Under the pieces are notes generated by a model. The model was not told where the DNA came from. It made no database searches and saw only the letters and a list, made by a program, of their open reading frames with translations. The position numbers and the translations under genes were made by a program. This document shows positions 11,356 to 58,800 of a stretch of DNA of 64,000 nt, one piece after another (within the stretch, counting starts at the first letter, position 1; every line of letters starts with the position of its first letter). Location of the stretch: NCBI GenBank assembly GCA_002811675.1, contig PDIM01000021.1, positions 118,329 to 182,328 on the forward strand, read 5' to 3'. Source of the stretch: Ichthyosporea sp. XGB-2017a. Its lineage: Eukaryota > Opisthokonta > Ichthyosporea.

Positions 11356-12007
11356 ACTGCACAATCAGAATGCTATCCAAGCTTAGATTGAGAAAAAAGA
11401 CCAGTTCGTTATTTGTTGTGTGTATGCGGTGGTAGTAGACTAATCAGTGTACAAATAGACTTCTGTGACTGTCACAGCACGTGGGGAACACATGGGATTA
11501 CCCGAAATGGAGTTGCTCACTGTATGTGGCTGCAAAGATTCCGTTCAGTCTAGGCAAACTCATGCAAATTGAGCTTTGTTCCTTGAAGAGAGCAGAGCAG
11601 TGCGTTTGTTTACGTTTCGGAAGCAAATGTTGGGGTTACTCTCAGAAAGGGTGATATATCGTCCACCGTCGGAAGTCCGGAAGCGGATGCCGGATGGGCT
11701 TCCGGCCGAGAGGTGTTAAAGGGTTTGTGGGAATATTGTAATATTGTTGTGGTTATTTGTGCCAGAATTGTTGTTATAAAAGGCTAAAGCTTTGGAATAA
11801 ATTATGTACATAGTTGAAGGGACTTTGAAACACGAAGCTACAGTCTTGGCTCCTGAGCTCCAGTACTGATAGTCCTCGAGGATAGATGGTCGATTACAAA
11901 TAGAAGAGGGGACAGTGACTGGAGCAAGTGCTACATTCGAGTTTGATTTGTAGAGGAAATGAAACTTTTATTTTATTGCAAGCCTAATAACAGGCTCTAC
12001 TATGTAG
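11356..12007. other. Intergenic region, no gene seen
   Basis: The promoter side of AlkB copy 2 and the 3' side of the protease. Minus-strand AATAAA signals for the protease are visible near 11967-11978 (TTTATTTTATT on the plus strand), about 30 bp past its stop. Confidence 0.5.
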
Positions 12008-13668: not shown

Positions 13669-14390
13669 AACTATCAATCAACTAACTCGTACGTAACACT
13701 TTCAAGAACTGAGTACTTAACTGAATATATATGTTTGATTCAGTTGACGGGGTGCTCCTGTCACTTGTCAGCGCTCAGCAGCTGGCAGTAATCATGCTAG
13801 CTACTGGGTACACATAGTAGTTACACCATGAATGCATGAAGCTCTTGCTACGTCTCAGGCTCCCAAGTCTCAATTAGTGTGGAGGGAGGGTGTGGACTGT
13901 TCACTGTGGAGTCTCTGATGATACTGCATAATATAACAGGACTACGTAAACACCACAGGAATGCACTGGACCCTATTCGGCTATTCCCTAGTACTACCCT
14001 ACTAGTGTGCAAGAATAGGCCACGTGTCAATGTACATATTAGGCAAGAGGGCGGGTCCGAGGAGGCCTAGCTGCTAGCTGCTCATGTTAATTATTTATAA
14101 TATAAAATGACATTGTTTATATTATCAGCTATAATTTATTTATTTATAATATTCCCTGCACCTGTCCATCCAGGACTATACTAATAATAATAACAATAAC
14201 AATTATATAGACAGCCCACTAGCTGAGGCAAAGTATATAGTGGAAGTCAGGCTTTTTCTCACCCTGCTCCATTGTATCTATGCGTGTGTCACTGTCACTG
14301 TGTGCGTGTGTGCTAGATTTACTTGTCTGTTACTTGCTCTTTTTGCAAATTGATTGAGGTTCACTTATTGATTTACTCTCGAAAGCCATT
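13669..14390. other. Divergent intergenic region between protease and ODAD3-like gene
   Basis: It contains the promoters of both genes. A strongly AT-rich stretch at about 14085-14215 has TTTATTTAT runs and short AAT/AAC triplet runs. No gene was seen and no clear RFX X-box was found here. Confidence 0.5.
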
Positions 14391-15968
14391 ATGCCTGCAG
14401 CAAGACAAGGGGCTGTCCTCCTCGGGGGCTACTTCAGGATTGAAGAAGAGCTTGATGAATTGAAAAAGAAATATTCCCTGCTAGAAGGGGATCGTAAAGC
14501 GTACTACGAAAACTCTCAGCAAAAGATTAAGGAGAATAGGGAGTTGATTCAACAGTACCGAGAGAATAACAAGGGTTTGCGAGAGGCCCTAGTCGAGTTT
14601 GGCAAAGCCGACAGCGCTACAGTGAAGGCGGAAGATATAGAAAGCCTCCCATTGACAAGTAAGATTGAAAAGTTGGATAAAAAAGTTTTCAGTATGAGAA
14701 AAAAGATGGACGAGGTACATGTGAACTTAATGAAAAAATACAAGCAAGTCACTGAGCTTGAAGATATGGATAATCAACTTACCAATGATGATGCGGTGAT
14801 TCAAAGCAATGCCAAAGAATCAGAGCTTGCTAAAACCACCCGATCACTAGAAAATAGATACGACAAGGCCCAGATTAAATACCAAGAGGCATTGAGTATT
14901 AAGAAAACGTATGCAGAAATTATTGCTCGCCTAAAATCGGAGCAAATGACGTATGATTCCCGGTTGGCTGACACCGAAAAGGTTATTGCCCATAAGCGCA
15001 AGGAAGTGCAAGAACTGTTGGAGCTATCAAAAGATGCTCTCTATGCCAGAGATTCTGCAAAAGAAGAGCTGACTGCATTCGAAAAGCAACTGGCTGAAGA
15101 CAGAAAGGTGCGAGAAGCTGAATTGACTCGAAAGAAGGAAGAAGTCAAAAATGCTCTGGAATCTACTGAAAAAATGGAAAAACGGCAGCAGATGAAAATG
15201 GAGCTGGAAGAGGAAACGCCAAAAGATAATCAGCAAGACGAGGAGGAGGCCGAGCGGAAGATAAGCAGTTATGAAGACGCATTGAGAATGATAAAAGATG
15301 CTACCGGAGTTGCCGATGTCAGTGAAGTAATCGACAAGTTTCTCACCCAGGGAGACACTCACAAGCACTTGTTGGATTTGAAGACAGAAAATGAGCAGCG
15401 CATTGAAACACTTTCTGAGGAGAAAGGTAAGCTCACTAAAGAGTTGAATGAGCTTACTTATTCCGGAGAAGTTGAGTCTGGAACAAGAAGAATAATCGAT
15501 GAGTTTGAAAACAAACTCAGGGAGGCACAAGAAAAGTACAATAGCAAGGCAGAATCATTGACTAGAATGTGCAAGACTATGATGAGTATCAAATCCGGAG
15601 TACTGCATTTGGCTAGCAAAGTTGGGGATGCGGGAGAAGTGGCTTACAATATAACAGATGATAATATTCATTCAGTCCTATCAACATGCGAAGAAAAAAT
15701 CGGAAAGATTTTATTGAAGCTAGATGAAAAGAGCACGCCAGAAAAGGAAGAAGAACATGCCCGCACCCCTGCTGTAATACTTCCAGAACACAATGTTCGA
15801 GTCGTTATGCCCACTGGGGACAAAGCAGAAGTATATTCGGACGATGAAGATGGCCCGCACCCAGAGGACGAAGTTCCAAGCAGAGAGAATATGAAAAAGG
15901 CTGCCGCTGTGCTGGTGGACTCCAAGACCAAGAAGACCAAAAGAAAAGGAAGACGGGGCAGAAAGTGA
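14391..15968 (+). CDS. ODAD3: Outer dynein arm docking complex subunit, ODAD3/CCDC151-like coiled coil
   Basis: A single exon encodes 525 residues, almost entirely charged heptad-type coiled coil. Segments such as RYDKAQIKYQEA, KTYAEIIARLKSEQ and ELLELSKDALYARDSAKEEL, together with ATGVADVSEVIDKFL further on, match what I recall of CCDC151/ODAD3 and its Chlamydomonas counterpart ODA10. Their role is to assemble or dock outer dynein arms on ciliary doublet microtubules. The paralogous ODAD1/CCDC114 family is the main alternative. The C terminus changes to an acidic patch (YSDDEDGPHPEDE) and then a lysine/arginine tail (KTKKTKRKGRRGRK). The gene implies a motile flagellum and fits with HYDIN at the other end of the window. 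Confidence 0.75.
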   Translation: MPAARQGAVLLGGYFRIEEELDELKKKYSLLEGDRKAYYENSQQKIKENRELIQQYRENNKGLREALVEFGKADSATVKAEDIESLPLTSKIEKLDKKVFSMRKKMDEVHVNLMKKYKQVTELEDMDNQLTNDDAVIQSNAKESELAKTTRSLENRYDKAQIKYQEALSIKKTYAEIIARLKSEQMTYDSRLADTEKVIAHKRKEVQELLELSKDALYARDSAKEELTAFEKQLAEDRKVREAELTRKKEEVKNALESTEKMEKRQQMKMELEEETPKDNQQDEEEAERKISSYEDALRMIKDATGVADVSEVIDKFLTQGDTHKHLLDLKTENEQRIETLSEEKGKLTKELNELTYSGEVESGTRRIIDEFENKLREAQEKYNSKAESLTRMCKTMMSIKSGVLHLASKVGDAGEVAYNITDDNIHSVLSTCEEKIGKILLKLDEKSTPEKEEEHARTPAVILPEHNVRVVMPTGDKAEVYSDDEDGPHPEDEVPSRENMKKAAAVLVDSKTKKTKRKGRRGRK

Positions 15969-29775: not shown

Positions 29776-29781
29776 TTTATT
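29776..29781 (-). terminator. Poly(A) signal of talin
   Basis: TTTATT on the plus strand lies 23 bp past the talin stop at 29804-29806. Confidence 0.6.
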
Positions 29782-29803: not shown

Positions 29804-32800
29804 TTATAATAAATCTTCCGCATCGCTTATCTCAGCGCGAGCTTTGTCGGAATCGTTGGTGGCAAGGAAACTTCGTGCAATGGATTCTTTAACAATGGAT
29901 TCTTTTTTTAGCTCACCCAGTTTAGATGTGGTCGGGTCTGAGTGATTGCTCGAAGTTTTGGTCGATGGTTCATTAATATTTCGCCCGTCTTCTAGATGGG
30001 AGTCAGGCAAGAGTCGTTCATCTTCGCTATTTTCTGGAACTGGAATGTGTATTTTCGGAATAGTAGGGAGAACAAGTGTCACCTTTGCCTTAGATGCATG
30101 GTAAGAGCACTCAGCTACATCAGTGCAATCATTGCATTCCGAAATATCGTGCGCTAGAACTATATTGAGAGACTCTATTGCAAAGTTCAAAGCATTTCCA
30201 GAAGCCTCGAATGCTCTCCAAGCCCGGTTGTTTTCTGCAACGCTTTGCTCTCTAAGCGTGTGGGCAGTGGATGCAAGTTTTTGTGCAATAAGAGAAAGAG
30301 AATTAACGTCACCCTTTTCCGTGACATTAATTAAAAGCTCATCATAAAGAATTTCCAAACAGTCCTTCAGAGAATTGAAGTAAGAAATAAGCTTGGCATC
30401 ACTATCTTCAGATATGCTAACTTTATCCTGTCCATCATGAGTCTTTAACGCATTTTGATAATACATGTGTCTCTGTACGCTCACCGCAGCTCTTAAGAAG
30501 GCCGAGAGGGTACCTGTGATTCCTCTTACTCCATCTATAATTTGCTTGTAATTGTGCCATAGATGAGGTGTATGAAGAATGTGCTTTGGTACTTTCACAG
30601 AAGTAAGCATTGTTTGGACTTCTTCCACGGCTTGAATGATTGAAAGAAGGGTAGTATCGATTTTACTCGCAACGGGTGCAGGATACACATCTTGCTGTCT
30701 TTTTTCTTTCTGAATATTTTGTGATTTTTCGGCATTTCCTTTTTTATGTCTTTTCAACAACAATTCAACCTTTTCTTTGGCTCTTTGCCGTCTTTCGCCG
30801 ACATCTGTTTGACAACCTGCGTTCTTCGTTTGAGGAGAAACAAGGGATACGGACTTGACAGAACTACGAAGACCTGTGAAGTCTCCTCTAGTCTGAACTG
30901 AGCGGGATGATTTTGATGACATTGGCTGACTTTTTTGGTGTGGTGAAAGATGAGTTGCTGTCACAACTACATTATTGGCAGCAGCTTCATCACGCGCTTC
31001 TTTTAGGCGCTTTAATACAGATATATAGTTTGCAATGCTCGATGCCACATCTGCTGCAATAATATTAATTTGGATAGAGTCTTTCTGGGTATAGGTGGCT
31101 GATATCAAACTCGAGCATGCGTCAACTACAAGTTGTAATGATTTAAGCCTATTTCGATTCATTTTTTTGTCCCCCTTGAACTCACAGGCATGACTGGAAA
31201 GCAAAAGTTCGATCAAAGTCTTTTTGACCTCACAGCATGCCTTTTTCAAAGGAGACCTATTGAATGATATAGCAAGTGAAACGAGTTTTACAGTTGATTC
31301 TGTCACTGGCTTTGTTGTTAGAAGCATAGTTTCAACTGTATCATCCTCACAAAACGACTCTTCGTTAGCCACAATGATCATGCATGTTTTGATTTCCGCC
31401 AAGATGTCATCAACCGAAGTCACGTCTTCGTCTGGACATAAGTACATGACATTGAATCTCCTCAGCAACTGATTGCAGCGTGATCGAATGCAAGGAATAC
31501 ACTCCATAATTGGTCTCACTTTTGTGACAAGGTCATCTTCAACGATGACAGCATCATTGCACTCTGTCATAAGCTGGGTGCAAGACTCAAGCATAGACAT
31601 AAATGATGTACAAAGGGCTTCAATATTTACATTTGTTGAAGTCAGAAATTGAACGATTGCTTTAGTGGTTTCAGATGTTGTCAAAGTACACAGATCAAGC
31701 ATTCTATCAGCACAGTCAGCATGGAAGCAGGAAATACTATCTTCATCTAGCGACTGGCTTTCAAATCTCTCTAATTCATCTTTCAAGCTTACAAGTGACT
31801 TAACCATAAGTTGATGATATTGCTTTACACAACTTTTCAGATCTTCACTGTTTTGCAATGTTGACTCTGTGTCAATCGCTGATGAGAATGTCAAGAGGGC
31901 TTTGAGTTCATTTTCACATTCAAGTAATTTAGATGCTCCTCGCTTGTATAACTTAACGACTGGTCCTTTGAGGCATCTTAATTCTTTTCGCAAGCTATCT
32001 GAAATTAAACTTATGTCTGTAGTAAGCTGTTGAAGTTTCCATTCGGTAGAGGAAGTATCTTCAATTATAACATATTCCATAAGCTGCGAAATTGTGTTAA
32101 AAAAATCCCTGTATTGTGCTTTAAATGCTGCTATAGCTGGAGCTTCAACAGATATTCGACAACTCTCCCTTGCATAGAATGTCAACTTTGAAAAGGATGT
32201 TTCAACAGCTATCATTTGGTCATCGAGCAAACTCTGATCATTTGTAATGGGGTACATTGCTCCAATAAAATCTTTTAATTGCATAAGATTCAGCTTTGCG
32301 CCATCAATAGCAGAATTTATAGTAATAGTGGGATCAATATAATCACCACCCCCTCTCAAAAATAAGGAGTACGAAGCTGCCATGGATACCATACTTTTGA
32401 GCAACTGTGCCCTCCATTCCAGGGTATTTAGAATTTCTGACATTTCAGATATTTCTGACAAAATGTTTCCATGGAGTAAGTTGGGGCCATACTCACCGAC
32501 GCTTCTATTAAGCATTCGGAGTCCTGAGGCCCATACATTTTGTATTTTTGTCAAAATAAAGCCTTTTGTGACTTTGCTAGGGCACTTTGAGCAAAGCTCA
32601 GTAAGCGGATCTAAGTTTCTTGCAAGAGCTTGGCCAAAGAGAAGTAGACTTTCTCTTAATGTTTCTTGACTGCAATTGGTCTCACAACTAAGTTTCAGCG
32701 GGATAAAATATTGTTTGTTTAAGCGCCGAAACTTAACATTTTCCATCTTAGTCTACGGAACTCAAAAAGAAACAAAAGAAAGGGTTAGTATCGGAGAAAT

Positions 32801-35800
32801 TTTACACAGTAATGGGGTCTTCTGCACTCACCTCAATTTCGTTGGAGCTAATGAATAAATCTTCGTCTGGCATAACCTCAAAAACACAGTCGTCAAGTGC
32901 TCTTAAATGAGTTTTGTATATTTTCAGTGCCTTTTGGTATTCTACTTCTTCTGCTGATGCTCTCTCTTTAACTACGGGTATTAACTTTTGAATAAGCTTT
33001 GTCGTTGAAAAGCAAACGGACATTACAGTGGAGCTGTCCTTATTTGTCATATCAATGAAGTCTATCAATGAATCGTTTGTTTCTTTTAATGCATTGCCAA
33101 TACTACATAGCATCGAAAGAGTCTCTTCTCTTGCCATATCATCTGGAATATATCCTAAGCACTTTTCAGATATATCTAGAAGTTTCTCATAGCTGATGCA
33201 AGACTCTCTGGAAATGTTAATATGATCGGAATTGATCGAAACGGATGCCAAGGGTGCCAAACTGCTTGAAAGCTGATTCACTCTGTCTTCAAATATCTCC
33301 ATATTAATCTGATCAATATTTTCACAAGGGTGTATAACTTTTTCATTGAATACACAAACAATCTCGTCGAGGGTATTATTGACAAGGGAAATTTCGTCCC
33401 TTGGTGTGAGAATTGCGGCTACTGATGTATACAGTCTTTCCAATGAATTTTTGACTTCTTCTTTAGCTAACAGGCTTTCTTCATATCCACTATCAATATC
33501 TACGATATCAGCTTTCAGAGTTTCTCCAAATTGCGAAAGGCACCCAGCTAGACCTACACCATCTTCAATGACGGGAAGTGCCTTTTCTTTGGGGGTTTTA
33601 ATGCTAACTTCTTGGGTTGACACGAATACGCGTTCTATTGACACCTCAATATGGTCTATTATTTGTGCTACATTTGAACTACCATCTTGCAAAGCCTGTA
33701 ATAAACTGTTTGACTCATCCAAAAGGCTTTTCGCCTCATTAGTTAGAATGGCCTGCACATCTTTAACTTTCATCATACATTCAACATCTAATCGAATATC
33801 GCCTTCTCCGGACGCTACAGTTTTCTCGTGGATGCCATTAAGTCGCTGAATTCCCGACTGAATAAGTTGAGTCATCTTTGTGATGGACCTTACGCCAGGA
33901 ATCAGGAGCGAAAGCTTGTCGGCTAAGCGACTAGTTGCAACTTTACATTGATTTGATCCCGAGAGAAGGAGTAATTTGCTGTTTTCACATCCCAACTCCG
34001 AGTGTATTGTGCATGCATTAAGTACACAAAGGGACAAATTGATTACATTTACAAGCGATGGTATGATTGACTCGACAGTATCTTTGTTTTCATGCCTTAG
34101 GGCCATTCGTGTTTCTGCAACTATGGCTTCAATATCATTACACAGTACTTCAATGTGCTTTCCTTGTATGTGTTTCGCTTTTTGATTCAATGTCTGCAAA
34201 TCTTTGGAATAAGCCAGACACTCGAATACAGCATTGCGCATGTACGAAATAAGCGTGTCAGAGTCCGAATCAAGGACGGTTTTCTCATTGTTTCCACTAG
34301 CTAAATTTTCAATGGCGTGTATATGCTTGGCAAACTTAGGCTCTATGTTTTCAACTAAAATATAGATTGTATTTCGAATAATTTGCATTGCCTTGACCAA
34401 CTTTGAATCTGCATGATCATTCTTTGGTGACTTTTCAAGGGCTTTCACACTTGCTATGTATGACTGACCAGCTTCTATTAAGTGTTCACTTATTTCTGTA
34501 TAATTTTCATCCAGCTTCGTAAGCAAAACTATGTTAGAAACAACTGCTGATATATGTGAAGCGATTACATACATTTCCGCGACGTCATAGCCAAAATCAA
34601 CATGTCCATCGTTTTCGCAGTCAAAAAGGAGCAAATCAATTTCGGTCACTATTCCAAGAGTGTCATTTTTTATCATTTCTTTGTCTTCGGAAACAATAGG
34701 TCCAATAATTACATCATCTGGCTCATTTAGTCCCTTTCTAGCTTCATCAAGAGCATTTAATGCAGCATTATAATTACTTGGAATTTCCTTTTGTCCTGCA
34801 ACAAATTTAGTGCAATCAGTGACTTGGGATAAAAGCTGTTCAGCTTTAATGGCAACTGACTCTATAAGAGCGAGAACTTCAGAATTAACGTTTTCTTCGG
34901 AAAATGAATATGCGTATTTACCAACTAAATACAGTGCCTCTAGTGATTCTTCAAATACAGGTTTTACTAGACTAATTAAGCCACGTTTAGCAGGTGGGTA
35001 TCGCAAAAAGGATATAAGTCCGGCAAAACTCTCTCCAAATTGCTCAAACTGATGTGACAAAGATAAAGCCTGCTTCCCAAAGACGACAGGATTTTCCAGG
35101 CCAGCGAGACACGTGATAGGAACATTCTTACGTAAAAGCTCTACGGCATGCAAAATCATGTCTTGGAACTCAGTAAACGCTAAGGTCTTCTCTTTTGTCA
35201 CTGGATGAAATACTTTATACTCTACGAGAACGCTTTGAAGCGCATTTTTCACAGTGTCCGTACCTGAAAGAAAATCTCCGTACCCAGGAAACTTTCCTTT
35301 AAGAGTGGAGCTGATAAGTTCGGTTTTCTGCACTAGCTCTTCATTTGAAATACTCTTTGAAGAAGCTACATTCTCCAGTAACTTGCAAATGGACATCTTA
35401 CAATCTTCCGCCAATACAGAGCACAAGCCGTCATTTCCTATAAAGGGTGACAAAGTACGAAACATTTCAAGCCCCTCCCGAAGAAAAAAACACGAACTGT
35501 GAATGTCTAAACCCCCCCTTACATCACATTCAGACGAATAAGACTGTAGCAGATTAACACCCAAAGCCAATGAGGCGTGTATCTGTTTTGCTAAAAGGTG
35601 GTAACACTCGATCGCAGGGCTCATTCCTATGCTCCTGAATTCTTCTTGCATTAGGTGATGACATTTACCAAGCTCTAGTAGTTCAAAATCACCTTCTTCA
35701 AGGCTCTTTTCAAATGACTTGCAGTGCTTTACGATGCTCCGTATAACAATACGAGAATCTTCTCCGGCTTTCATTCGTTTAAACAACTTTTTGCAGGAGA

Positions 35801-38800
35801 TTCCAACGTCACGTAATTTTACAGTAAGAATGGATCCGAGATCGTCATCATGAAGAGTAGCAATTAATTTTCCCGTACATAATGATATTTGCTCCCAAAG
35901 AAGGGTCAGTTCACATGCCCAGGAGTAACAGCTTTCACTTTCAATATGATTTGCTCGTTCAGAAAGCTCTTTAGACATGGGCTTAAGAAGATTCCAATAG
36001 GAAATATACAGGTCAGAAAGTACAATATGCTCAGGAGAATCTCCCTTTTCACATGACTGGTAGTACTTATCAAGTCGCTCCATCCCATGCTTAATCCAGC
36101 AGTCGAGTTTATCATAAATAGATTCTTTCACCACTTGGGTAGTTATTCCCAACTGCAAAGATTTTAGCTTCCCGAGCAAAGCCATCGCAGAATCACTCAC
36201 AGATGCACATGGAGATGTTTCAACACTTTGTAAATTGCCTATTATTGACCTAATGAAGTCTTTACAGTGCTCGACAACTGCCAGGTTATTTGATGAGACA
36301 CACTCCATATGTGCATAAAAGCTACCATCCCTCACAACCATAACAAGCGTGTCAGAAAGAGTTTTTAGAAGATGAAGATCATCAGAGTCGTGTGCATGTG
36401 CAAAAACATCCTCTGCTTGAATTCTAAATTCTTGAAACGCGTCACTTATTTCTTTTGCAATATCTTTCCATTCAGGATTATCACTGACTGACAGGGCGTT
36501 CACAGAATCCAAAAGCTCTTTTACATGTGATGAAAGCTTTTGTATACACACTTTACGTTCTGAAGCAGAAATATTTTCTGCAACAGCTCTATGGCATTCA
36601 TATTTAACTTTGACACTGTGAGTGTTAAAGTAAGAGGCTCGCTCAAGTAGCATATGCTCCAAAGGAACCTTAACACGGGACATCAGAGTAATTATTTTTA
36701 CAATTTCTTCCGTAATCGATTGAACGGCAACCGGAATGACTGCATGCTTGCTGTTCTTTAATGATGCAAAAACAAGATTTATAAACGATGCAATTCTTAT
36801 CCTTGAGTAGCCTACACTTGCAAAATAACTTTGCGTAAGATCTTCAGTGATTGTTTCGGGTTCTGCCGTGGAAATAGTTAAATTCAATTTTCCAAGCTTT
36901 TCAATTTCCTCTGTGAGAGCACGTGAAGTCACATCATCTTCTACTGCAGACTCACAAACATCATCGCAAAGATCGGACAACCTTCTCTCTTTTGGAATCA
37001 TGTCTTCATCATTGCCCTCACCCTCATTGACAAGGTCTTCTCCTTCATTATATATACCCAGATATTCGGCACGAAAATCCAGGACAATTTCCTTCAAGTC
37101 ATCAAGACGATCTTCTTCCAACGAATATATATTTTCCAAAATATTCAAAATTATTTTACCATATATTCTAAGTTTGTTAATTTCATCACTATCTTCATTG
37201 TGTGTAACACATTGGTTGCAGCAATTGATCACTAAATGGTGAAACCTTTGAATCCTTGACGCTAAAAAGTGTAATTTGGGTATAAGACTATCCTCATCAA
37301 GTTCGGGTGCATCGGTGTCTTCTTCAATTGAGTCAAGAGAGGATATAAGTTTGTCGAAAGTTTCAAGGCCTTCTTCTAGGGTGCAATATCTTTTAGTGCG
37401 CTTGCTGACTAAAAAGTTTGAATGGTCTAGCGAAGAAAGGAAATTCTGAATCCATCCAATTGAGCAAGCTTTTAAATTTTCGCATGGGTTCTGATCTTCT
37501 ATGTATGCAGCAATTTCATCTGCAGAGCTTAAAATAGACCGCCGCAGACGCTCTTCTTCTACCTGCTGCTCATCGATACTATTGTTAATAATAGAAACAA
37601 ATGATACGCAATGGTCAATTAGTTCTTCATTGTAGGCTTTGATTTGTTCGAACACAGAGTTGTTTCCCTTAATGGTGACAGGCCAAGTCAAAGATTTTTC
37701 TTTGGCTTTAGTTGAGATTAATTTAAGTGCCTTAATGAGGTTTTTGGAGGCCTTTTGAAATTCTTCTCCCCAATTTTCACCTTTCCCTGTACTCTTATTT
37801 TGTATACATTCAGCAACTGCGGACGTACACGAAACAAGATTCTTCCCCAAGCTCATCCATTTTGCTGACTCGTTGGAGTTGTGCTCCTTTTCAGCTTCCG
37901 TTTCGCAAGAGCTGCACAAAGCTGAGGTGGTTTTGGCAATCACCGCGGCGTACCCTAACAGTTTTGGATCACCTGCCTCCAACTTGTTGATACCCTCAAT
38001 AGCTATTTTAACTTTCGGAAGTGTGCTTAAGAATGGGTGATGCTTAACAATATGCTTAGCTGTTGCATAACCAAAAGCTGCATTAGCACTTTCTTGCACA
38101 ATGCTCTTAATAATCAACATAAATTCATGTAGATGATCAACAAATTCATTTTCTTCTATACTACTGCTGCTTATTTCACTTAAAATACCATTTAGTTCCC
38201 CCCTATGAGTTAAAATACCGTCGATACTACCATAGTATAACTTTAGCGAATGAATGCTAGTTGGGTTATCAAAAAAGTGCAAAAAATTTCGAAGTGTGTT
38301 ACAACTTTCAACGAACGGGTTGTCTGACTTCGTTAAAGCAATAGTAGTCTCCTTTTCAGCAGACGGGGTTTTATGAGGCTGAGGAGAATGCTTCGGAGAT
38401 TGCTTCTTCTTCAGTGATGACGAGGGTACAGTTACCTTATCACCTTCCGTCACTTTCAAGCTCTCTCTTTCAGCGTCTTCGAGGGGGGGAGCGCTAGATA
38501 AAATGTTGCATAACAAGTCTTGTAGGGGGCAACTACAATCCGAAGTGGCATTTTTGTCAACCATAAGTTTCTCCGTTAGTTCCTCGGCAATCTCTGTAAC
38601 CAGCAAAGACAGTTCCTTGGTCACTGATATCCAATCTCTTTTTAATTTATCATTCTCAATGTTCCCAAGCATTTCCTTACAATATGTTAAAAATATAGAG
38701 CACTTGCCAAGAAGATTCTGACTTCTCTCTGATAGACGTTCAATATCCTTATTTGCACTTGCCCCTATATCTTCCTTATCTTGATCCTCTTCTCCATCTG

Positions 38801-41800
38801 ATTGGCTAAGGGGCTGTGTTTGACTTCCATGAACAGAATCTCGAGCACCTACTTCTTCTAGAATGGTCAATATATCATCAATAATATCTTCGCACTTTTC
38901 TCTATCCACAGCGCGATTAAATTCTGGAAGTTTTTTACTCTCCTTTCCCAGCTGCTCCAAAAGAGGCTTCAATTTGTGCAAAGAATCGTCGTCAATTTGT
39001 ACCCCCTCACAGTTGCCCGCAGAACACATTTTAGTGAGATTTGAGTGTGCGTTCAAAATAGCTCTTTGAACTGGAGGTTCTTCAACTATCGTAGTACAAT
39101 ACTCATTGATTTTTTTTAGAAAATCATTCGACTGTGGGCTTGACCCTTCAGTACCAACATCCTGTGAGGATAAAGAAGCTACCCTTACATTAGATATTGA
39201 CATACTACTAGCGCAAGCAAAGCATGCATTTGCCGAAATATTGCATAGTCCGATGGTAGACTGCTCCATTAACTTCACAGATCGCTTTAAAGATTGGAAT
39301 TTCTGAGAGTTGTATGCAAGGGCAAGGTCATCCATACTTTCTTCTACAATATCTTTAAGTCTACAAGGTACTTCAAGGGATTTTTCATTCAGCCCTTGAA
39401 TTAGAGAATCTACAGTGAACTGCTCGTCAAGACTATCTTTGGATGCTTTGATTGTGGCAATTGAATTATCAAAAAATTCTTGATATTCTATTGTTTTGAA
39501 GTTTTCAAGTAGCTCTTCGGTGTCTGCATTGTCCACATTGATAGTATTACTCAATGCTGATGTTTTCTGGGGAGCTATGGCTGGCTGCGATAGCCTTTTT
39601 TCCAGTTTTGCAATAGTCCCTTGAATATCATCGTTCTCATCATCAGATTCCATTTCATCTTCTATCTTTTCATTATTCATCAATACATCGTCTTTAGGGT
39701 TAGGGTCCTTTGCTTCTGGGATACTATCTTCGCTCTCATTTTTTGAAGAAGCATCTGCGCTCTCATTGATTTCTACTTCAACTTCTTCTTCAACTTCTTC
39801 TTCAACCTCTTCTTCAACTTCCTCTTCAACTTCTTCCCACTCCCCGTTATCTCCTTTCAGTCCTTCAACTAATTCAATCATATTGTCAATTTCTTCATAA
39901 TAGGACCCGAGCTCTGCGGAAGAAGGAGGCTCCGCAAATCGTTTAATCAAACCTATCATAACATCATGGTGCTTCTTAAACGGTTGGGAAAAATCCTCCC
40001 AATGCGAACCCATATTTTGGGCGATTGCGGCTTGAGATAAGGTCGAAAATTCTTTGTTGTATTTCATTACCAAGGCTGATATAGCCTTGTTATCATCTGC
40101 TCCAGCCATTTCATTAAGGGTTTCTAGAATTGTTTCAGCTTCGGGAAATGCTTTTTCGTTCCCCTCCTTTTTAACCATTTTCTTCACAGTCTTTTTAACT
40201 TTTTTCTTAACAACAGTTTTTTGCATTACCTTCTCTACTTTAATTCTTGATTTTTTGTCCTCTCCTAATGTCGCATTTACTGACTTTACTGACTTTGGAG
40301 TATTACTGCCATTTGTATTTTCTGGCAATATTTCGGGTGTCAGAGGCTTAGCCACAACACTATTGTCATCAAGCGTATTGTTAGCCCTACCATCTTCGTC
40401 ATGTATATCACTCCCATCGGAAACGGACCTTACGTCGTTAGACGTCTCAGACTTACTAGTCGCTGATGCTAGGATGCCCCTTTCAAGTCGCTCAGGTGGG
40501 CTTTCAAGTACATCCATTAAGTCAAAAGCAAGCTGAATACACACATCTTTGTCCGTACCGGTTTCGGATTCTGCATAACGTTTCATTTTTGAAGCAAGAG
40601 CGTCCAGAGAAGTTTTAACTTTTCTCACAAAATCGGTAATATCTTGAGAACCTTCGGCCTCTGCCTGCTTGTGCACATAAGAAAACTCTGCGTTCAACTT
40701 CTTAAGCTCCTCTGGGTATACTTTTGGAGCGGAATTATCATCGGATAAAACAATACAGCTTTCAATCATCGACTCTATACTTTTGGTGAACCCAGTGAGT
40801 TGTTTGGAGTAGCCAGAAGGCTTTGGCGAGCTTTCTGGGCTCTTGCTAGCTTCTGTGCAATTTGAAACAATACCTGCATTACCGGAGCTCGGTTTAGGAT
40901 GTGCATTTGCCTCACTTGTTTCAGGTAATTCCCCATCACTTTCCTCAAGGCCCCATCTTGATCCCAAGCGAAGGCAAATAGCATCTTCCAAGCACATGAC
41001 GTATGGCTCGACGGCACCTTCAAAGTCATCAATATCAAAATTTTCTCGAAGGTCCCCAGCTTTTGCCTCTAAAGCTGCATACGACTTATCAAAAGTTAAG
41101 GCAACCTCACTCCAACCGTTAAGATTTAGTTTGGATAAATGAGATTTTACTATGGCATGATTATCCCATACATTTAATAGTTCTTTTTCAACTATTTTTG
41201 AAAAACTATCTTCCAAAGCTATATTATCAAACGCTTTGTTAATTAACTCGTAAGCAGTTTCTATCAAATCAATTTCTTCATTATCAGGTTCCTTGTTAGA
41301 AACCTCTGCTTTAGAGGTTTCAAGATTCGTTTCTCCAAGAAAGGCGCTCAAATGATCACTTTCACTTTCACTATCACTAGCAGCACTTTCTTTGCTTATA
41401 TCATCATCTAGTAAAGTTTCCCCAGCTGTCACAGTTTCTTGGTTATTTGCAGATATGTCTCCTGAATTGCCTTTAAGGGTGGTATGTGCAATGAGTCCTT
41501 CAATTATTTCCATTATAGGATCGATAGAAAGGGCACACGTCTCTCGATGAGCATCCGTTTCTGCTTCAGAAAGTTTATGAATACCTTTTCCGAGATTTTC
41601 TACATGCAGTACCAATGATTTTAAGTTGTCCTCCCAAAACTTTAGCTTGTTTCCTTTGAAAACGTCTGTTAAGGAAGATATTGCTTTGGATATGCCCCCG
41701 TAGTAAACACCAAGACTCTTAGATCCGACATGGTCGTCCAATAAAGAATTGCAGTTTGAAAGTATTGTTTCCATTAGGGCTCTTGTTCCTGGTGCTACAG

Positions 41801-43413
41801 GAAGGCTTTCGACCATGTCACGATCTTCATCTTCGACAATATCAGGCTCCCCATCAGAATCTTTGTCGGCTTCTTTCGATTCTTCACGGATATTTAAATC
41901 TTCTGCGCTACCACCATCAACATCTTCCAAGTGTAAGTCCGCATCAGAAGACGCTTCATGGACGTCTGTTTTAGGCAAATACTCTTGCATCATATCTAGC
42001 AAGTCTTCTACTTCACTTGTGTTGAACTCATGCCTAGCCATATCGTCCCTGACAAAATTAATAACAATTGTATTCTTTTGACATGAAAAGTCGCGAATGT
42101 ATTTCAATGGCCAGATTGAGAGTGTCGTTTTTAATTTAGCGTCTATGCGAATTATATACTCCTCGCAAATGCCTAGTGTCACCTTCTCGATTTTTTTCTT
42201 CCCGTTAAACTCCTTGCAATTAAAAAACGTCACACCATATGCCGGCAGAGCTCTAATAAGCTCAATGAATTTGAACTGAGCCTCTATATGGTTTAAGTGC
42301 CTTACTGTTCGATAAGTTTCATATAATTTATGAGCCACGTCTTTTTCTTTCGCAAATTCATGAGGAACAAATTCTTTTGTCTTTTGCCTTTTCGAAGGAG
42401 CAGAAGAACGTAGAGCTTGTTAGGTCCTAAGCTTATATTGGAGCATAGCGCTTCTTTGCAACATGAATACTTACTTGAGGAATTTTAACAGGGATTCTTT
42501 ATCATGGGCCATATCTTTCAGAACTATAATATGGAGGGCTCCGAATATAAGAGCTATTTTATACTCACAAGGAACAGTTCCTTCAAGTACCACCTTTCGC
42601 GCCTTTTGACATGTGAAGAAACAAAGAATAATGAATAACAATGCATCTACTGACTTAAATCACGACCCACACATCTTAAATTTTCCTTCCTAAGCATTAA
42701 CATACCTTTTCATATAGAGCGCTTACTAAACTTTTATCATCTCGTGCTTTGAAGTAACTTTTCCACAATCCCGGGTTTTTAAGAGTCAAGATTGGTTGTG
42801 TTCCGATGTCTTGCTCACTGAGAGATTTATCATTGTCCAAGAATTTCCCTAGTAAAAGCAAGAACAACAAAATATAAGCTTTAATTTTCTTTCTTAAGCA
42901 ACAAACAAAAGCGAAATTGTATTGAAGGTGGTTGGTTCACTTACATCTCTTTAAATCAGCCAAATAGAAAGTGTCTGTGCTGTTAACCTCCTCCGTGAGT
43001 TCCTCTTCTTCCGCCAAATTGAAGGACGAGGGTGTACTTAGTGCAATTTCTTGGCATATTTTCGGGACAAGATCTTTACAGGGCAATGAAAAATCTAACT
43101 CCATCTTTTCCACAGTTTCGTTTGGAAGCCTAACTAAGACTTTTTTCGTAGGCTTTCTCATTTCGACAATGGATTCCGCACCTAAATGATAATCCCCCAA
43201 CTTTTTGTCAGGTTCAATCCACTTCCCCATGCTTTTCTTCCTCTTGTCAGGAACAAAAAGTTTAAATGAAGACGCATCCTCTGAAAAAGCTGCAGCAAGG
43301 GCTTTCATTAGATCTTTCCCTTTACGGCCAACATCAACGTTCACCTTTTTACTCTTTTTCTTTGCCACGTTAGTGACAATGATCGGGAGCTTTAACTTTT
43401 CTTTGTCTGCCAT
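29804..43413 (-). CDS. TLN: Giant talin-like FERM/rod protein, 5 exons
   Basis: Exons 43413-42945, 42848-42706, 42602-42475, 42387-32832 and 32752-29804 join in phase at GT-AG sites into 4,414 residues. The N terminus is a talin FERM: F0 with MGKWIEPDKKLGDY and VEMRKP, F1 with VLVRLPNETVEKMELD and, across an intron, KRWKFLDNDKSL; F2 with KARDDKSLVSALYEK and VVLEGTVPCEYKIA; F3 with AYGVTFFNCKE and WPLKYIRDF. This order and the split RWKFLD motif match animal and Dictyostelium talins. An acidic linker (about 375-440) follows, then roughly 3,900 residues of mostly helical, Cys-containing sequence resembling talin rod bundles but strongly diverged. A Lys-rich patch (about residue 975) and a tandem EEVE run (about 1,108) interrupt it. 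I see no obvious I/LWEQ actin-binding module; the last 35 residues are charged and helical. Talin links membrane receptors to actin. Only the FERM assignment is firm. Confidence 0.85.
29808..29813 (+). terminator. Poly(A) signal of the FMO, inside talin's last codons
   Basis: AATAAA on the plus strand lies 107 bp past the FMO stop and is antisense to the final Asp-Leu-Leu codons of talin (stop at 29804-29806). It is the only AATAAA noticed between the FMO stop and that point. Confidence 0.5.
39769..39837 (-). repeat. Tandem 12-bp repeat coding for a Glu-Val run in talin
   Basis: The plus strand reads repeated CTTCTTCAACTT-type units. On the coding (minus) strand this gives five copies of a four-residue EEVE unit, forming a highly acidic stretch at about residue 1,108 of the talin rod. 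Such repeats vary easily by slippage. Confidence 0.8.
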
Positions 43414-44025
43414 TGTGCGTTCATTGATTTGACAGAGGAAAAGACCTACAGAACTCTATACGTAAGTCTTCTCTGCACCAAATGTATTCCAAAAGTGTGC
43501 GTTAAATTTCTTTTAGGCAGAAACTCTTGTTTATGTATATATATGCTGCGAATCTAGAGCAGAGCAGTCCAAAGGATGGTATTCCTGTCTATGAGGATAC
43601 TATAGATCTCCAAGTTGTGTGGGTATTCAGGTGTGAGAAGGAGCAGAGGACGAAGAAGAAGGAGGAGGAGGGGGGGGGAGGGGAGTACTGTAGTGAATGG
43701 GAGCACGACCGGGATAGCTGGAGGAGAATAAATGGCCTATCCTTCCCGTTAAGGCAATAATACAAATAAGTACAAATATGTCAATCACGCATGGACCGGT
43801 TTAGCTCTATGTTGCTGCTGCTGACTAGCAATTAGGGCTCCTTGCTGATAAGGTACCGAGGAGAGAATCATTGCGTACAAGCCGCCTCCCCCAAGAAATA
43901 AAACAGAGGCACAACAGCTTTGTAAGACGCTTGAATTAATATAACGGATTTCAATCAAAAGTGTGCACCATGCCATTATTGCACTTATCCTCTGTATGGG
44001 TAGAGCTGGATGAGCGGGAAGCAGT
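43414..44025. other. Divergent promoter of talin and the MFS transporter
   Basis: No gene recognised. It has a purine-rich stretch at about 43635-43690 on the plus strand (GAAGAAGGAGGAGG with a G-run). A short frame at 43527-43760 lacks any family signature. Confidence 0.5.
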
Positions 44026-46290
44026 ATGAGCAGAGCACAGGAGGATCTAGAGCTACGGGAGGTAGAGAATGGGGTAGCAGGGATAGAGGGAGCCTCTGAC
44101 ATAATGGACGCTGAGAGTGTGTGTGAAGATTATCCCCTGGCCTATCCTGATGTTGACGAATGTGATAATGAAGAGCTCGAGTACGGAAAAAATGAGTCTT
44201 CCGAGGAGGAGGAAGAAGGGGCACAAGAAGAGTTGTATAGAGGCGACATACCAGAAGAACCAGAGAGCTTAGGAATTATGTACGTTACAATGAGTAATAA
44301 CCCAAAGTTAAATATTCCTGGTGCTGCAGATAGTCCGTATGATCCACACCATTTACCACCGCCTTATGCCCCCAATCGCTGTCAAACTACTGTTCCAGTG
44401 GAAAAGAAGTGGAATCGAACCTACTCATTTACATGGAGTGAGAGATTGATTGTCGCGTTAACCTTTGTTAACAGTCTCTACTACTACAGTGTATATATGA
44501 GTCTCCAGTCATTTTGGTATGTGATCGCTCCGGGAATGGAGAAACATTTTGGGATTGTTTGGGCTATTTTAGATTTTGGCAGGATAATAGGTCATTTCCT
44601 GACTTTATTTATTTTTAATCGGTATGGGGTGCGAGTGGCGTGTCTCAATGGGTTGATTTTAGGGACCATTGGGAGTTGTTTGTATGGTCTGTCAATGTTC
44701 ACTGGCGGTACGAAAGTAACGGATGGGAGTTTATCTGTTGGAACATACCAACTTCTCTATATTGCCAGGTTGCTTATGGGTATATCTTCGGGGTCGATTA
44801 TAGCTGGGCCTCTGTATTTTTCAAAGACATTGTTAATAGAATATCGAGGCCCTGCCTTGCTCATGTGTAAGCTGGCAGAACTGGTTGCCTTTGTTCTGGG
44901 AACTTCATATCCAATTGCCTTTACGGCGACATTTTCGGATAATGTAGACTATGGAGATGATCTTGAAATGGTATTTAATTTATATACTATTCCTACCTGG
45001 CTAAATACGTTCATTAGTGCTTCTTGTATCCCACTGGTTATCCTTTTTATGGAAAACCCAAAAGTAGCAAAGAGACGCATTACAGGAAAGAATTTGTTCG
45101 GGGCAAGAGTAAAAAAGGTGTACAAAGAATTACAGCCAGGGAAATACTCATGGGAAACCTCAAAGGACATTCGGTATCAAGCATTCTGTTTGTGCTCCAC
45201 AGTGTTTGTTTTGAATGTTTTTTTTGCATCAGTTTCCACGAATATGTTTTCATTGGCTGTTCGATACCAGGTTGTCTCTAGTGCTAACGAGCTGGGACTT
45301 ATTGGAGTGAGTGTTACGGCGATAGTTGTGGTATGCGGTCTTTATATGAGTCGGGTGAAAAACCATTTAAGTTTGGTTTGGGGTCTTGCTATTGCCAACT
45401 CTGCCGCATTCCAGCTTTTGGATTATGGTGTGCCACACGGAAGCAGTTTTCAGTTTTATTTTGGCACGCTTTCGGTTACTTTAGGTGACCTGCTTACAAC
45501 CATGATCGTCGGGCAGTTCTACATGAAACAAATGAGCTATTACATGGATCAAGGCGGGGATAAGATACAAACTTTTGTATCTTTAATTGGTTTAGCTGGA
45601 ATCTTCGGAAAAGCAATTGGCAGCTTAATATTTGGATATTCTTTGGCGGTTGAGGTTTCGAGTGACGATGAACTTGCTGCTCGCGGCTTTAACTTTACTC
45701 TGTCGCTAAATAACGCCACTTACTTAACTGATTTTTATTCGCAAAACAAAGATTTGTGCGTTCTGCGATTTCCCAGTAACTTTCAAACTGATGGCTGCCG
45801 ATTAATTGCTGTCAATGGAACTTTCATATCTATGATAGTGTTTTGCATATCGTTTTCCTTTATTTTGGGTGCTTATATGCATAATAACGACATATTGGGA
45901 TTTCCGGCTGATATCTATTTTGGCAATCTAGGGGAAAAAAAAAGTGAATTTTTTGATGTTGGAGAAACTTGCAATACTAAGGAAACTGCAGAAGAAAACG
46001 AATTTGACCTTCTGGATAAAATCGAGTGCCCTGACTGTACAGATCGTTCTTGTAAACGATGCAAAAAGCGCAGAAAGGCGTTGAAAAAGATTCAGCGTTT
46101 TCGAGATCGACCTGTTGTGCAGCATTCGTTTTATGAGCCGTACATGTCCCCTCTGAACTTTTATTTTGTAGGCCCTGATGATTTTAATTATCGATACAAT
46201 AGGGATTTTCGTGTACATGACATTGACTACAGTGGACACCATGACAGGAGTAAAAAGGACAGCGTTGCCGATATTGTAAGCCTTTCTTAA
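44026..46290 (+). CDS. Major facilitator superfamily transporter
   Basis: A single exon of 754 residues from the ATG at 44026; a second in-frame ATG at 44104 would drop 26 residues. The N-terminal 140 residues are acidic and polar (ESSEEEEEG), probably cytosolic. About twelve hydrophobic helices follow. The TM2-TM3 loop (ILDFGRIIGHFLTLFIFNRYGVR) resembles the MFS signature, and RLLMGISSGSIIAGPLYF fits TM4. A Cys-rich cluster after the last helix (CPDCTDRSCKRCKKR) could bind zinc. A lumenal loop with NFTLSL, NNATYL and NGTF sequons precedes the last helix. The substrate is unknown; the MFSD8/CLN7-like and SPX-type groups were considered but no specific match was seen. The stop is only 24 bp from that of RCAN on the other strand. 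Confidence 0.8.
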   Translation: MSRAQEDLELREVENGVAGIEGASDIMDAESVCEDYPLAYPDVDECDNEELEYGKNESSEEEEEGAQEELYRGDIPEEPESLGIMYVTMSNNPKLNIPGAADSPYDPHHLPPPYAPNRCQTTVPVEKKWNRTYSFTWSERLIVALTFVNSLYYYSVYMSLQSFWYVIAPGMEKHFGIVWAILDFGRIIGHFLTLFIFNRYGVRVACLNGLILGTIGSCLYGLSMFTGGTKVTDGSLSVGTYQLLYIARLLMGISSGSIIAGPLYFSKTLLIEYRGPALLMCKLAELVAFVLGTSYPIAFTATFSDNVDYGDDLEMVFNLYTIPTWLNTFISASCIPLVILFMENPKVAKRRITGKNLFGARVKKVYKELQPGKYSWETSKDIRYQAFCLCSTVFVLNVFFASVSTNMFSLAVRYQVVSSANELGLIGVSVTAIVVVCGLYMSRVKNHLSLVWGLAIANSAAFQLLDYGVPHGSSFQFYFGTLSVTLGDLLTTMIVGQFYMKQMSYYMDQGGDKIQTFVSLIGLAGIFGKAIGSLIFGYSLAVEVSSDDELAARGFNFTLSLNNATYLTDFYSQNKDLCVLRFPSNFQTDGCRLIAVNGTFISMIVFCISFSFILGAYMHNNDILGFPADIYFGNLGEKKSEFFDVGETCNTKETAEENEFDLLDKIECPDCTDRSCKRCKKRRKALKKIQRFRDRPVVQHSFYEPYMSPLNFYFVGPDDFNYRYNRDFRVHDIDYSGHHDRSKKDSVADIVSLS

Positions 46291-55811: not shown

Positions 55812-58800
55812 ATGGAAGATACCTCTATTACCCATGCGCTTTTAGAAAAGCGGCAGCAGGATAGAAGGCAGAGTACTTCCAACCTTGTTGGTGATGTCTT
55901 ACTCGCAAAGGTAAACATAGACATGTGCTTAAGTGGTGTGTATTTGTGATAATGTACTTACAAGTAAATATTTTTGTGTAGAAAACACCTTCCAAGTATA
56001 TTACGGAAATGTCCTGGACCACTGCAGAGCGATTGAAAAAGGTTGCGCTAAGTGGCTGCAAACCTCGGATAATAGAGCTTCACGATATGGCCGATCATTG
56101 TGAATACAAAGAATCTATGGTACAAGTAGATGAGCCTCTGTTCAGCCCATATCCATCAAAGTTGGTATTTCAGTCGTACGAGCCGTTCAATACATATTCG
56201 GTCAATGTTACCCTGCGAAACAACGATAAGGTAAGATAAAAGAATTCAAAAGACCTGTTTTTCAAAAGTTCTTAGTTGGAGACTAATGTTGTGCATATCT
56301 TTAGGTTGCAAGACGAGTGAAGGTTCTAAAACCTGAAAGTTCCAATTTTGAAGTGGTTACAACAAAAAAGCACTTTAAAAAAATAGCACCGGGAATGGAA
56401 GCAGAATATGAAGTTCGATTTACACCTCATGATGAAAATGATTACAAGTGTGACTTAGTAGTTGAAACAGAGAGAGAAAAGTTCGTTGTTCCGATTGAGG
56501 GTATAGGAGCACGGGCTTTACTTGATTTTCCTGATGAAATCAATTTGGGCACTCAAGCGGTTAAACATGAATCAATCAAAACTATTCTTGTGAGAAATAT
56601 CGGAAACAGGGCGTGTACATTCAGGCTCTTGTGCACGGAGCCCTTTTCCCTTTCAGACTATACCGCCCAACTTGAAGTAAATGCCAGCATGCAGATTGAG
56701 ATAAAATTCAATCCTAAATTTTCCAAAGCTTATGAAGGGGAGATGGAAGTGTGCTATGATACCAATGAAAAAGTTTACATAAAACTTTATGGGATTGCAG
56801 AAGATGCCAATATTCGGTTAGAAAAAACGAGTCTTCGACTTGAGAATACTTACATAACAATGGCTTCGCAAAGAAGTGTGAAAGTGCTAAACAGAAGCGA
56901 TATTATGGCTAAGGTTTCATGGCACCGCTATTTTAATGAAGAGGAAGAGGAAAAACAAAGGGAAATGGACTATGCGCGTTTGAGGGAAGAGGAGGTAAAG
57001 GAGTTAGAAGATCCGTCAATGCAAGATGATCCGGAAGGGAAGTCTTTGATTATACAAAAGTACAAAAATAAGCGCAAAGCGGTGGAGCAGAAAAAAATGC
57101 TTTATGAAGAAGGCGCATTTGCAGTATCTCCAGTTGAAAGCACGGTTTGGCCATATTCTGAAGCAAACTTTACATTTTCCTTTTACCCTCCTACGGCAGA
57201 TTCCTTTTGTGAAACATTGTACTGTGAAATATCTGGCAGAGAATCGAGACTCCCTCTGACTATAAAAAGCAAAGGTATTGGGCCCAAAGCGAGGTTCTCA
57301 TATGACGTTTTCGATATTGGAGATGTTTTTCTCAATTCAACCCATATCTATGAAGCGGTGCTTGAGAATATTGGAGATATCCCATGCCCTTACAAGCTTC
57401 AACCCAGTGATTCTCTATTTTGGTCAAAGTTTACATTTTCTCCGGAAGAAGGGGTTCTGCAAGTAGGTGATAAGCAGAGTATTCAAGTGCGCTTTAGATC
57501 TGAAATTTTAGGGATGTATACAGAAGATTTTGTTTTTGCTTTAGAAAGCAGCTCTGAAGTCTTAACATTGCAATTCAAAGGGCATGTCATAGGTCCAACA
57601 TTTCACTTCAACAAGAGTAAGCTCGATTTTGGAACCGTTACTTACGGTTTTGTTAACACCCAAGTTGTATCTCTTATTAACACCTCATTGATACCTATGG
57701 CTTACAAGTTAAGGGTTCCGGCGGACGAAGGGTTTTATGGAGAAAAGGAATTTAAGGTAACTCCTAGCAGTGGCATTATACCTCAACAAAGTGAGCAAGA
57801 TATTAAGGTTGAGTTCACATCAAAGTTTTCAAAACTGTATAACCTTGGCTTGGTTGTAGATGTTGACATTGTTGGTGAAGAACTAATGTCATTACCAATA
57901 ACGGCTGTTTGCGTTGTTCCAAGTATAGTGTTGACAACACCTCTACTGGACTTTTCCACATGCTATCTTAATTATCCTTATGAAAAGGTTCTCGAACTTT
58001 CAAATGATAGTGATCTTCCTGCACGATTTGAATTGATGCACAGCGACGCTCTAAACGGCGAGCAAACAGAAGGCGGTATAACACACCCCCTTTCATTTTT
58101 TGCTAATATGGCGAAGGGAACTATTAATGCTCATTCGACCATACGCATAACAATTTCCATTTCGGTAAAGGAAGTGGGCCCAATTGAACTTCCTATACGA
58201 TTTCGAATTGCTGGAAGTGAAGAGCAGCCCTTGCAGGCCTCCATCGTTTGCTGTGGCAAGGGGCCTGAAGTTAAGGTCCTTTCGCACTCTTTGGATTGGG
58301 GGAAAATTCCAGTTTTGACTCCGAACTGTAAAATTTTAACTTTAAAAAACTCGTCCCCAATTGATGCGTACTTTAGTTCCCAGCTTATATCAAAAACAAA
58401 TGTGTTTTCGGTTACACCAATGTCCGGTTCCATAAAAGCGTTGGACTCTTTAGATGTTAGCATAACAGCTTTGCTGGATGATGTTATTAAATTTAATGAT
58501 AAGCTTGTTATTTATGTTAAGAATGGTGAAGAATTTACAGTTTCATTAACTGCTTCAGGAACCGGCACGACCATTATCTGCTCAGAGACGACTAGGGCCA
58601 TAGCATTCGGAAATATTTTTTCAAGCCAAGATTGCTTTAAGACCTTGAGTTTCAAAAACAATGGTAGGCGACAGCAAACTCTTATGTGGATCGTAGATGG
58701 GCATCTAGCAAAGGCGAAAAGAAATGAGGGTGAGCAGGTAGGGCCAGTTTTTTCTGCCACCCCAGAGAGACTTGTTCTTGAGCCAGGTGATGAGCAAGAT

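Follow-up and report, generated by a model that had tools for sequence, protein, structure and literature searches.

The gene found at positions 29,804 to 43,413 on the minus strand of a 64,000-nucleotide (nt) stretch of DNA was concluded to encode, probably as one gene, a second and giant talin of Chromosphaera perkinsii. The stretch, hereafter the window, covers positions 118,329 to 182,328 of contig PDIM01000021.1 (C21) in the assembly GCA_002811675.1, listed as Ichthyosporea sp. XGB-2017a. The predicted product of 4,414 residues would combine a talin head, an R7-R8 module and an R13 bundle, and would serve as a membrane-to-actin tether with a longer rod.

An ordinary talin (P0004) was located in the same genome, which was searched as an assembly of 25.06 Mb in 291 contigs. 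It is encoded on another contig (C24:71445-79309, minus strand), hence the giant was regarded as a second talin. The ordinary protein has 2,590 residues in a model with two coding exons and carries the FERM_f0, FERM_M, IRS, Talin_middle, Talin_R4, Talin_IBS2B and I_LWEQ domains. It was 100% identical over its full length to the EukProt protein Nk52_evm24s1178, which confirmed its spliced model. According to passages of the cited papers, the prefix Nk52_evm denotes Chromosphaera perkinsii (PMC6981761), a dermocystid ichthyosporean (PMC5560861), and the species was assigned accordingly from the identical talin. The matches to the ordinary talin spanned 2,488-2,880 residues among the 120 of 1,644 listed from a set of 5.8 billion proteins. 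The giant was about 1.70 times as long as its own ordinary talin and 1.74 times as long as talin-1 (2,541 residues). These factors correct an earlier note on this DNA, which gave nearly twice the length of known talins.

The gene was modeled as five exons on the minus strand, which joined in phase to give 4,414 codons and a stop. The exon number, the phase, the protein length and an exon 4 of about 3,185 codons agreed exactly with the earlier note.

42945..43413, minus strand: exon 1, with the start codon, F0 and part of F1
42706..42848, minus strand: exon 2, with F1 and the beginning of F2
42475..42602, minus strand: exon 3, with F2
32832..42387, minus strand: exon 4, 9,556 nt (~3,185 codons), with the remaining F2, F3, the N-terminal rod, R7-R8 and most of the expanded middle rod
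32753..32831, minus strand: predicted intron 4, 79 nt, phase 0, with a GTGAGT donor, a polypyrimidine tract and a TAG acceptor
29804..32752, minus strand: exon 5, 982 codons and the stop, with the end of the middle rod, the R12-like bundle, a linker, the R13-like bundle and the tail

Introns 1 to 4 were 96, 103, 87 and 79 nt long, with the donors GTAAGT, GTATGT, GTAAGT and GTGAGT and the acceptors TAG, AAG, AAG and TAG, respectively. The splice sites of introns 1-3 were picked by eye for the continuity of the FERM domain from 60 combinations that were open across exons 1-4. The predicted intron 4 is of phase 0 and has well-formed donor and acceptor sites and a polypyrimidine tract; its good GT-AG sites and the in-phase join had been noticed before. 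A TACTAAC branch point in intron 4 was also considered as support and dropped, since the motif was not enriched (five copies in 84 kb, permutation mean 13.7).

The coding sequence appeared intact by several measures. Exon 4 was open over 9,556 nt in its own frame, when stops made up 9.1% per codon in the other two frames, and therefore the run of 3,185 codons was not a random one. The in-frame codon usage of exons 4 and 5 correlated with that of the ordinary talin of the same genome at 0.955 and 0.948, respectively, and only at 0.78-0.87 out of frame. An AATAAA starts at 29781, just beyond the stop codon of exon 5. The window contained no N, and its GC content was 39-45% in 4-kb steps.

The first four exons encoded an F0-F3 FERM head, in agreement with the earlier observation. 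Residues 9-384 matched talin-1 with an E value of 3.2e-31 in a PDB-wide phmmer search, and talins were the first 19 of 44 matches. The best kindlin match reached 9.6e-14, and those of myosin VIIa and protein 4.1 were 2.3e-5 or weaker. Judged by these matches, the head is a talin F0-F3 FERM that is nearer to talin than to kindlin. The Pfam models FERM_M (54.6 bits) and IRS (32.4 bits) passed, FERM_N was barely above its cut-off (22.9 against 22.7 bits), and FERM_f0 fell narrowly below it (24.9 against 26.9 bits). The F2-F3 piece matched one protein, of 2,382 residues, at E<=0.001 in the 5.8-billion-protein set.

The identity of the head to 16 talins was 22-30%, with the ordinary P0004 as the least similar (22.0%) and the other 15 values at 23.2-29.6%. 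In the head tree, the branch of the giant was by far the longest (5.86 changes per column), which was too long for its placement among talins to be read. The lysines at talin-1 positions 316, 322 and 324 were retained in F3, and K256 and R277 (talin-1 numbering) were replaced by L and H, respectively.

The R7-R8 module and the C-terminal parts of the giant were placed as follows.

37473..38318, minus strand: R7-R8 module, residues 1604-1885; R8 itself covers residues 1694-1813 (37689..38048)
30989..31426, minus strand: R12-like bundle, residues 3875-4020
30125..30691, minus strand: R13/I-LWEQ (THATCH)-like five-helix bundle, residues 4120-4308
29807..30124, minus strand: C-terminal tail, residues 4309-4414

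The R7-R8 segment matched residues 1371-1573 of talin-1 in the PDB (phmmer, E 1.5e-5), the R7-R8 profile with 27 bits (0/400 decoys) and hhalign with 95%, and it scored 33.4 bits with Pfam Talin_IBS2B. The assignment of this module to the middle of the rod was considered firm on these sequence matches, and the insertion of R8 within R7 follows from the alignment. It was also the best-kept part of the rod, with 39.9 bits for R7-R8 and 28.5 bits for R8 in profiles made without P0003, P0004 and P0010. Its identity was 12.6% to the ordinary P0004, 17.0-20.2% to three other talins and 8.2% to P0003. A passage of PMC8287531 describes R7-R8 as a hub for signalling, set as a branch on the rod. Pfam VBS was not among the matches in the scans of exons 4 and 5, and Talin_VBS2 reached 15.9 bits over R8, below its cut-off of 24.2 bits. 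Hence, the additional cryptic binding sites suggested earlier found no support as vinculin sites.

The bundles of the ordinary talin were checked with profiles from which the same three sequences had been left out, and this protein was itself divergent. Its best R3, R8, R10 and R12 profile matches landed outside their own places and R11 scored 12 bits, when R1, R2, R4, R7R8 and R13 were clear. The R8 of P0004 scored 7.7 bits in its place, and 11.9 bits when only that region was searched with the same leave-out R8 profile. A weak R8 in the ordinary talin against a better-kept one in the giant could possibly reflect a division of labour.

Further, the C-terminal part was compared with talin R12 and R13. 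The R12 profile matched residues 3886-4016 with 11.7 bits (0/400 decoys, best decoy 8.6 bits), and hhalign of the segment ranked R12 as the best of 14 bundles with 38%. A phmmer search of the PDB with this segment found no talin, and the R12-like bundle was for that reason called probable. A linker of 99 residues separates it from the R13-like bundle. The R13 region retrieved only two PDB sequences at E<=10, both of them talin-1 R13, and a single-sequence AlphaFold2 model of the region gave talin R13 and the HIP1R THATCH domain as the top fold matches. The full-length-profile score of 27.1 against 23.9 for the best of 25 decoys was taken as secondary evidence only, the decoys being weak. The identity of the R13 region was 16.7% to the ordinary P0004 and 21.0-23.9% to four other talins.

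From the sequence matches and the model taken together, it was concluded that a divergent R13/I-LWEQ (THATCH) bundle is present at the C-terminus, its actin binding being putative. This corrected the impression that no I/LWEQ module was obvious: the bundle lies on exon 5 and is too divergent for the Pfam I_LWEQ model, which had no match to the giant. Of the hidden Markov models proposed for a search in the earlier note, neither I_LWEQ nor VBS matched above the cut-off, and R13 was found by a talin profile and by fold instead. Structure prediction, which that note had proposed for the rod, gave a five-helix THATCH fold for the R13 segment; the model of all of exon 5 reached a pLDDT (predicted local distance difference test) of 38.9, showed helical secondary structure only and was not used for the fold comparison.

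The part of the rod between the head and R7 consisted of hydrophobic units of ~85-105 residues alternating with acidic or serine-rich linkers. The recognisable R1-R6 were probably replaced there by four-helix-like units on acidic linkers. Seven units (U1-U7) were delimited by eye, and the leave-one-out models included U2 and U7, both of which failed the repeat test, as did U5. The units that passed, or nearly so, were as follows.

41484..41789, minus strand: U1, residues 447-548, R8-like (leave-one-out 23.8 bits, 0/300 decoys)
40497..40796, minus strand: U3, residues 778-877 (leave-one-out 19.8 bits, 0/300 decoys)
39852..40154, minus strand: U4, residues 992-1092, a weaker repeat (leave-one-out 6.2 bits, 2/300 decoys)
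38844..39131, minus strand: U6, residues 1333-1428 (leave-one-out 23.2 bits, 0/300 decoys)

In a windowed self-comparison, the best pair scored 18.5 bits against 13.7 bits for the best pair with reversed windows. That U1, U3 and U6 are repeats of one unit was well supported by these scores, and U4 is perhaps a fourth repeat. The R8 profile matched U1 with 18.8 bits (0/500 decoys; the next bundle besides R7R8 scored 1.6 bits), U3 with 7.6 bits, yet R6 gave 6.5 bits there, and U6 with 3.8 bits (5/500 decoys); U4 was not found by the R8 profile alone (-0.6 bits). A talin-free profile of the units had its best match at R8 in 24 of 26 talins, which are related and hence not independent tests. None of 30 shuffled unit models placed 10 or more talins on R8, and some gathered up to 20 on another bundle. 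The hhalign comparison of U1, U3, U4 and U6 with R8 gave 84% (E 7e-6), against 2.7% for the next bundle besides R7R8 and at most 1.6% for the reversed units.

Without U1, the hhalign value fell to 21%, with R8 still first. Other results weighed against an R8 origin. The unit profile had 23 matches in the whole PDB and no talin among them, and U1 alone had no PDB match. Taken singly, U4 and U6 showed no preference for R8, and U3 preferred it in 8 of 26 talins; moreover, R8 profiles also matched other talin bundles. U1 was likely derived from R8, and for U3, U4 and U6 such an origin was moderately likely. The N-terminal rod as a whole gave a full-length-profile sum z of 20.5 (0/100 decoys, shuffled in 7-residue blocks), and in a rerun 19.1 forward and 19.8 reversed. 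The positions of K1530 and K1544 were each basic (K/R) in three of five units, the own R8 of the giant included, in an alignment read by eye in which the lizard sequence P0020, with K1529 and K1543, stood in for talin-1. As a passage of PMC4938799 states, the R8 of talin-1 consists of four helices and is bound by DLC1, paxillin and RIAM through their LD motifs, and these two lysines are the LD-binding ones.

Extra length was recorded behind R7-R8, in two stretches that form the expanded middle rod.

32832..37472, minus strand: section of the expanded middle rod on exon 4 (residues 1886-3432), with helical periodicity and no assignable homologue
31427..32752, minus strand: section of the expanded middle rod on exon 5 (residues 3433-3874)

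In the giant, 1,989 residues separate the end of R7 from the beginning of R12, against ~481 in talin-1, an excess of ~1,500. An alpha-helical hydrophobic periodicity was found in all four large rod sections (z 3.8 to 8.2), with 3 of 20 blocks of 200 residues in the rod lacking it. The rod had no match at E<=0.001 in the 5.8-billion-protein set, where 7,988 candidates of 1,758-5,593 residues were scored. With bundle profiles, R1-R6 and R9-R11 were not recognised in the giant, and the complete R1-R12 order was not found. The earlier note had expected a rod grown to perhaps twice the usual number of bundles. The growth itself held, since the rod is long and alpha-periodic and its middle is ~1,500 residues longer. 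A doubled bundle number was not borne out, because acidic or serine-rich linkers make up some of the added residues and because the N-terminal rod holds R8-like units in an arrangement of its own rather than R1-R6 repeated.

The ancestry of the middle rod was also considered from profile scores. The full-length-profile sum had a z of 35.8 (0/100 decoys, 7-residue-block shuffles), and a rerun against talin bundle profiles gave 36.7 forward and 15.4 for its own reverse. However, the reversed ordinary talin rod scored 30.5 and vinculin 39.6, from which it was concluded that the block-shuffle decoys were too weak. A talin ancestry based on these scores was dropped, as 36.7 is hardly above the reversed talin rod and below vinculin. 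Hence, the middle rod was shown to be helical by its sequence periodicity and was left without an assigned origin.

The explanation by one giant talin gene was weighed against several others. The alternative of two genes, a head and rod protein of ~3,441 residues that stops at 32802 and a headless R12-R13 gene that starts from the ATG at 32746, was considered unlikely. Reading through intron 4 does lead to a stop after nine codons, at 32802, the ATG is in frame as the third codon of exon 5, and I/LWEQ matches occurred elsewhere in the genome (C164, strong; C197; C40) where no talin-type head was found. Nevertheless, only 55 nt lie between the stop and the ATG, and this stretch carries the GTGAGT donor, the long polypyrimidine tract and the TAG acceptor in phase 0. 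A single gene, as part of the overall explanation held to be probable, was preferred because the gap offers little space for a gene end and a new gene start, and because exon 5 brings in order the R12-like and R13-like modules otherwise missing from the head-bearing part. A fusion of a talin-like head to an unrelated helical scaffold of the spectrin or plakin type was disfavoured as very unlikely. It would account for ~2,000 rod residues with no assignable homologue, where three 401-residue pieces spanning residues 2000-3200 retrieved no talin from the PDB, and for middle-rod scores that hardly exceed those of the reversed talin rod. It does not account for R7-R8, the R12 profile match and the R13 fold in talin order, and the Pfam matches listed for exons 4 and 5 included neither a spectrin nor a plakin model. 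That the gene is a duplicate in decay, or an artefact of the assembly or of the gene prediction, and not a working protein, was held to be highly improbable. The low identity of the head with its very long branch would fit decay, as would a rod unmatched in a protein set that holds at least one protein of this species. Such an origin is opposed by a coding sequence that is intact over 13 kb of a single contig, with no N and with codon usage like that of the ordinary talin, and by an amphipathic periodicity that persists in each of the four large sections of the rod.

The remaining alternative, to which a lesser though appreciable probability was given, describes the protein as a talin by descent that is now a cortical scaffold, with its head on the membrane and LD-motif-type ligands on R8-like units, and with no actin or integrin tether. 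Several residues and modules argue for it and hence against a tether. In F3, R358 was replaced by D and W359 by F, and position 325 was I, so the integrin-binding residues were not found as in talin-1; the ordinary talin of the same genome has R, W and M at the R358, W359 and L325 positions, which are contacts to the integrin tail. The KVK actin motif of talin-1 R13 was not retained in the giant. The profile of the dimerisation helix (DD) had no match, and the tail showed short low-confidence helices in the model. The good preservation of R7-R8 within the rod fits a scaffold as well, and given the lost KVK, the altered pocket of F3 and no recognised dimerisation helix, the giant may be mainly of this kind. 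On the other side, the five-helix THATCH fold of R13 was kept over great divergence, which suggests its use, and the basic F3 residues 316, 322 and 324 were kept. The reading of a single-gene tether was retained as the probable one.

It was proposed, by analogy with the talin family, that the giant head would dock at the inner face of the plasma membrane, perhaps on a receptor tail, with the basic F2/F3 residues being partly kept. With D and F at R358 and W359, the receptor would probably not be engaged in the mode by which talin-1 takes up an integrin NPxY motif, and integrin docking of the talin-1 type is doubtful. The R13-type C-terminus would engage actin and so complete a membrane-to-actin tether, and its load-bearing rod would gain length from the 1,989 helical residues that separate R7-R8 from R12. 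The R8-like units, placed outside the compact rod on flexible linkers near the membrane, could provide extra docking sites for LD-motif proteins. The ordinary talin of 2,590 residues would then cover the usual talin role, leaving a specialised one to the giant. We tentatively propose, as a possibility with somewhat less than even chances, that after a duplication one talin multiplied R8 into a string of docking sites beside the membrane-bound head, inserted ~1,500 residues of rod between R7-R8 and R12 and kept the R12-R13 actin end, thereby becoming a longer tether and a multivalent adhesome hub.

Vinculin was found in the same genome (C7). Models of integrin alpha and beta had no match in it; those searches ran without a working control, and an absence is not claimed. 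A related ichthyosporean, Creolimax, has a nearly complete integrin adhesome, according to a passage of PMC4739763.

Talins occur in Obazoa and Amoebozoa, as stated in part of PMC12686525, and their length and domain order are almost invariant, with extra C-terminal residues in some organisms, in the sections consulted of a review (PMC6032930). Since that review holds length and order to be invariant, the giant, as judged from sequence and model, is a new talin variant that has the head, R7-R8 and R13 and departs from the standard R1-R12 order. The titles and abstract openings looked at among open-licence papers mentioned neither a giant talin nor a multiplied R8. Like talin-1, talin-2 and its own ordinary talin, the giant has an F0-F3 head, R7-R8, an R12-like and an R13/THATCH-like bundle in the same order. 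Unlike them, it has 4,414 rather than ~2,540-2,590 residues, spaced R8-like units in place of recognisable R1-R6, no recognised R9-R11 or dimerisation helix, and a changed R358/W359 pair. By the identities of the head, R13 and R7-R8, it stands no nearer to the ordinary P0004 than to other talins.

A precedent for two talins with distinct functions is the amoebozoan duplication into Dictyostelium TalA and TalB, as described in part of PMC6032930. In these and other extended talins the extra residues lie past the standard order at the C-terminus, whereas the giant expanded inside the rod. The R8-like units recall TLNRD1, which derives from talin R7-R8 and keeps R8-type ligands, as a passage of PMC8287531 indicates. 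TLNRD1 is, however, a headless R7R8 dimer, when the giant carries R8-like units in series together with a head and R13. Hence, the giant, with its FERM head, does not belong to TLNRD1, nor is it a kindlin. The HIP1R/Sla2 proteins have the C-terminal THATCH fold in common with the giant, as far as the model goes; to our knowledge, they have neither a talin F0-F3 head nor talin R7-R8.

A talin that kept both ends and R7-R8, and changed the rest in number, order and spacing, would make it testable which domains must stay and how force and signalling depend on the length of the rod and on the number of R8 units. The giant and the ordinary talin both occur in one relative of animals, from a clade with much of the integrin adhesome, as reported for Creolimax, and could be compared within one cell.

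A search of the genome for paralogues of exon 5 found itself and one 16.7-bit match on C61 only. Among the proteins with I/LWEQ matches, frame L008 on C197 (1-2124) would have an unusual architecture, its N-terminal part resembling, as read by eye, a coiled coil of the BAR type with an SH3-like stretch behind it, and frame L009 on C40 scored 38.9 bits with I_LWEQ and has at least 716 residues. Within the window, a divergently oriented frame of 758 codons (44014-46287, plus strand) begins ~600 bp upstream of the giant talin and had no Pfam match at E<=0.001. A 2,565-codon frame (56305-63999, plus strand), open at the window end, carries numerous Ig domains of the HYDIN/CFAP65 type together with a weak Hydin_ADK match, as in a hydin-like axonemal protein. 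Besides it, an ODAD1 coiled-coil protein of outer dynein arm docking (14358-15965, plus strand) gave a second hint of a flagellated stage. Two adjoining fatty acid desaturases (8030-9202 and 10228-11364, minus strand) are perhaps a tandem duplicate.

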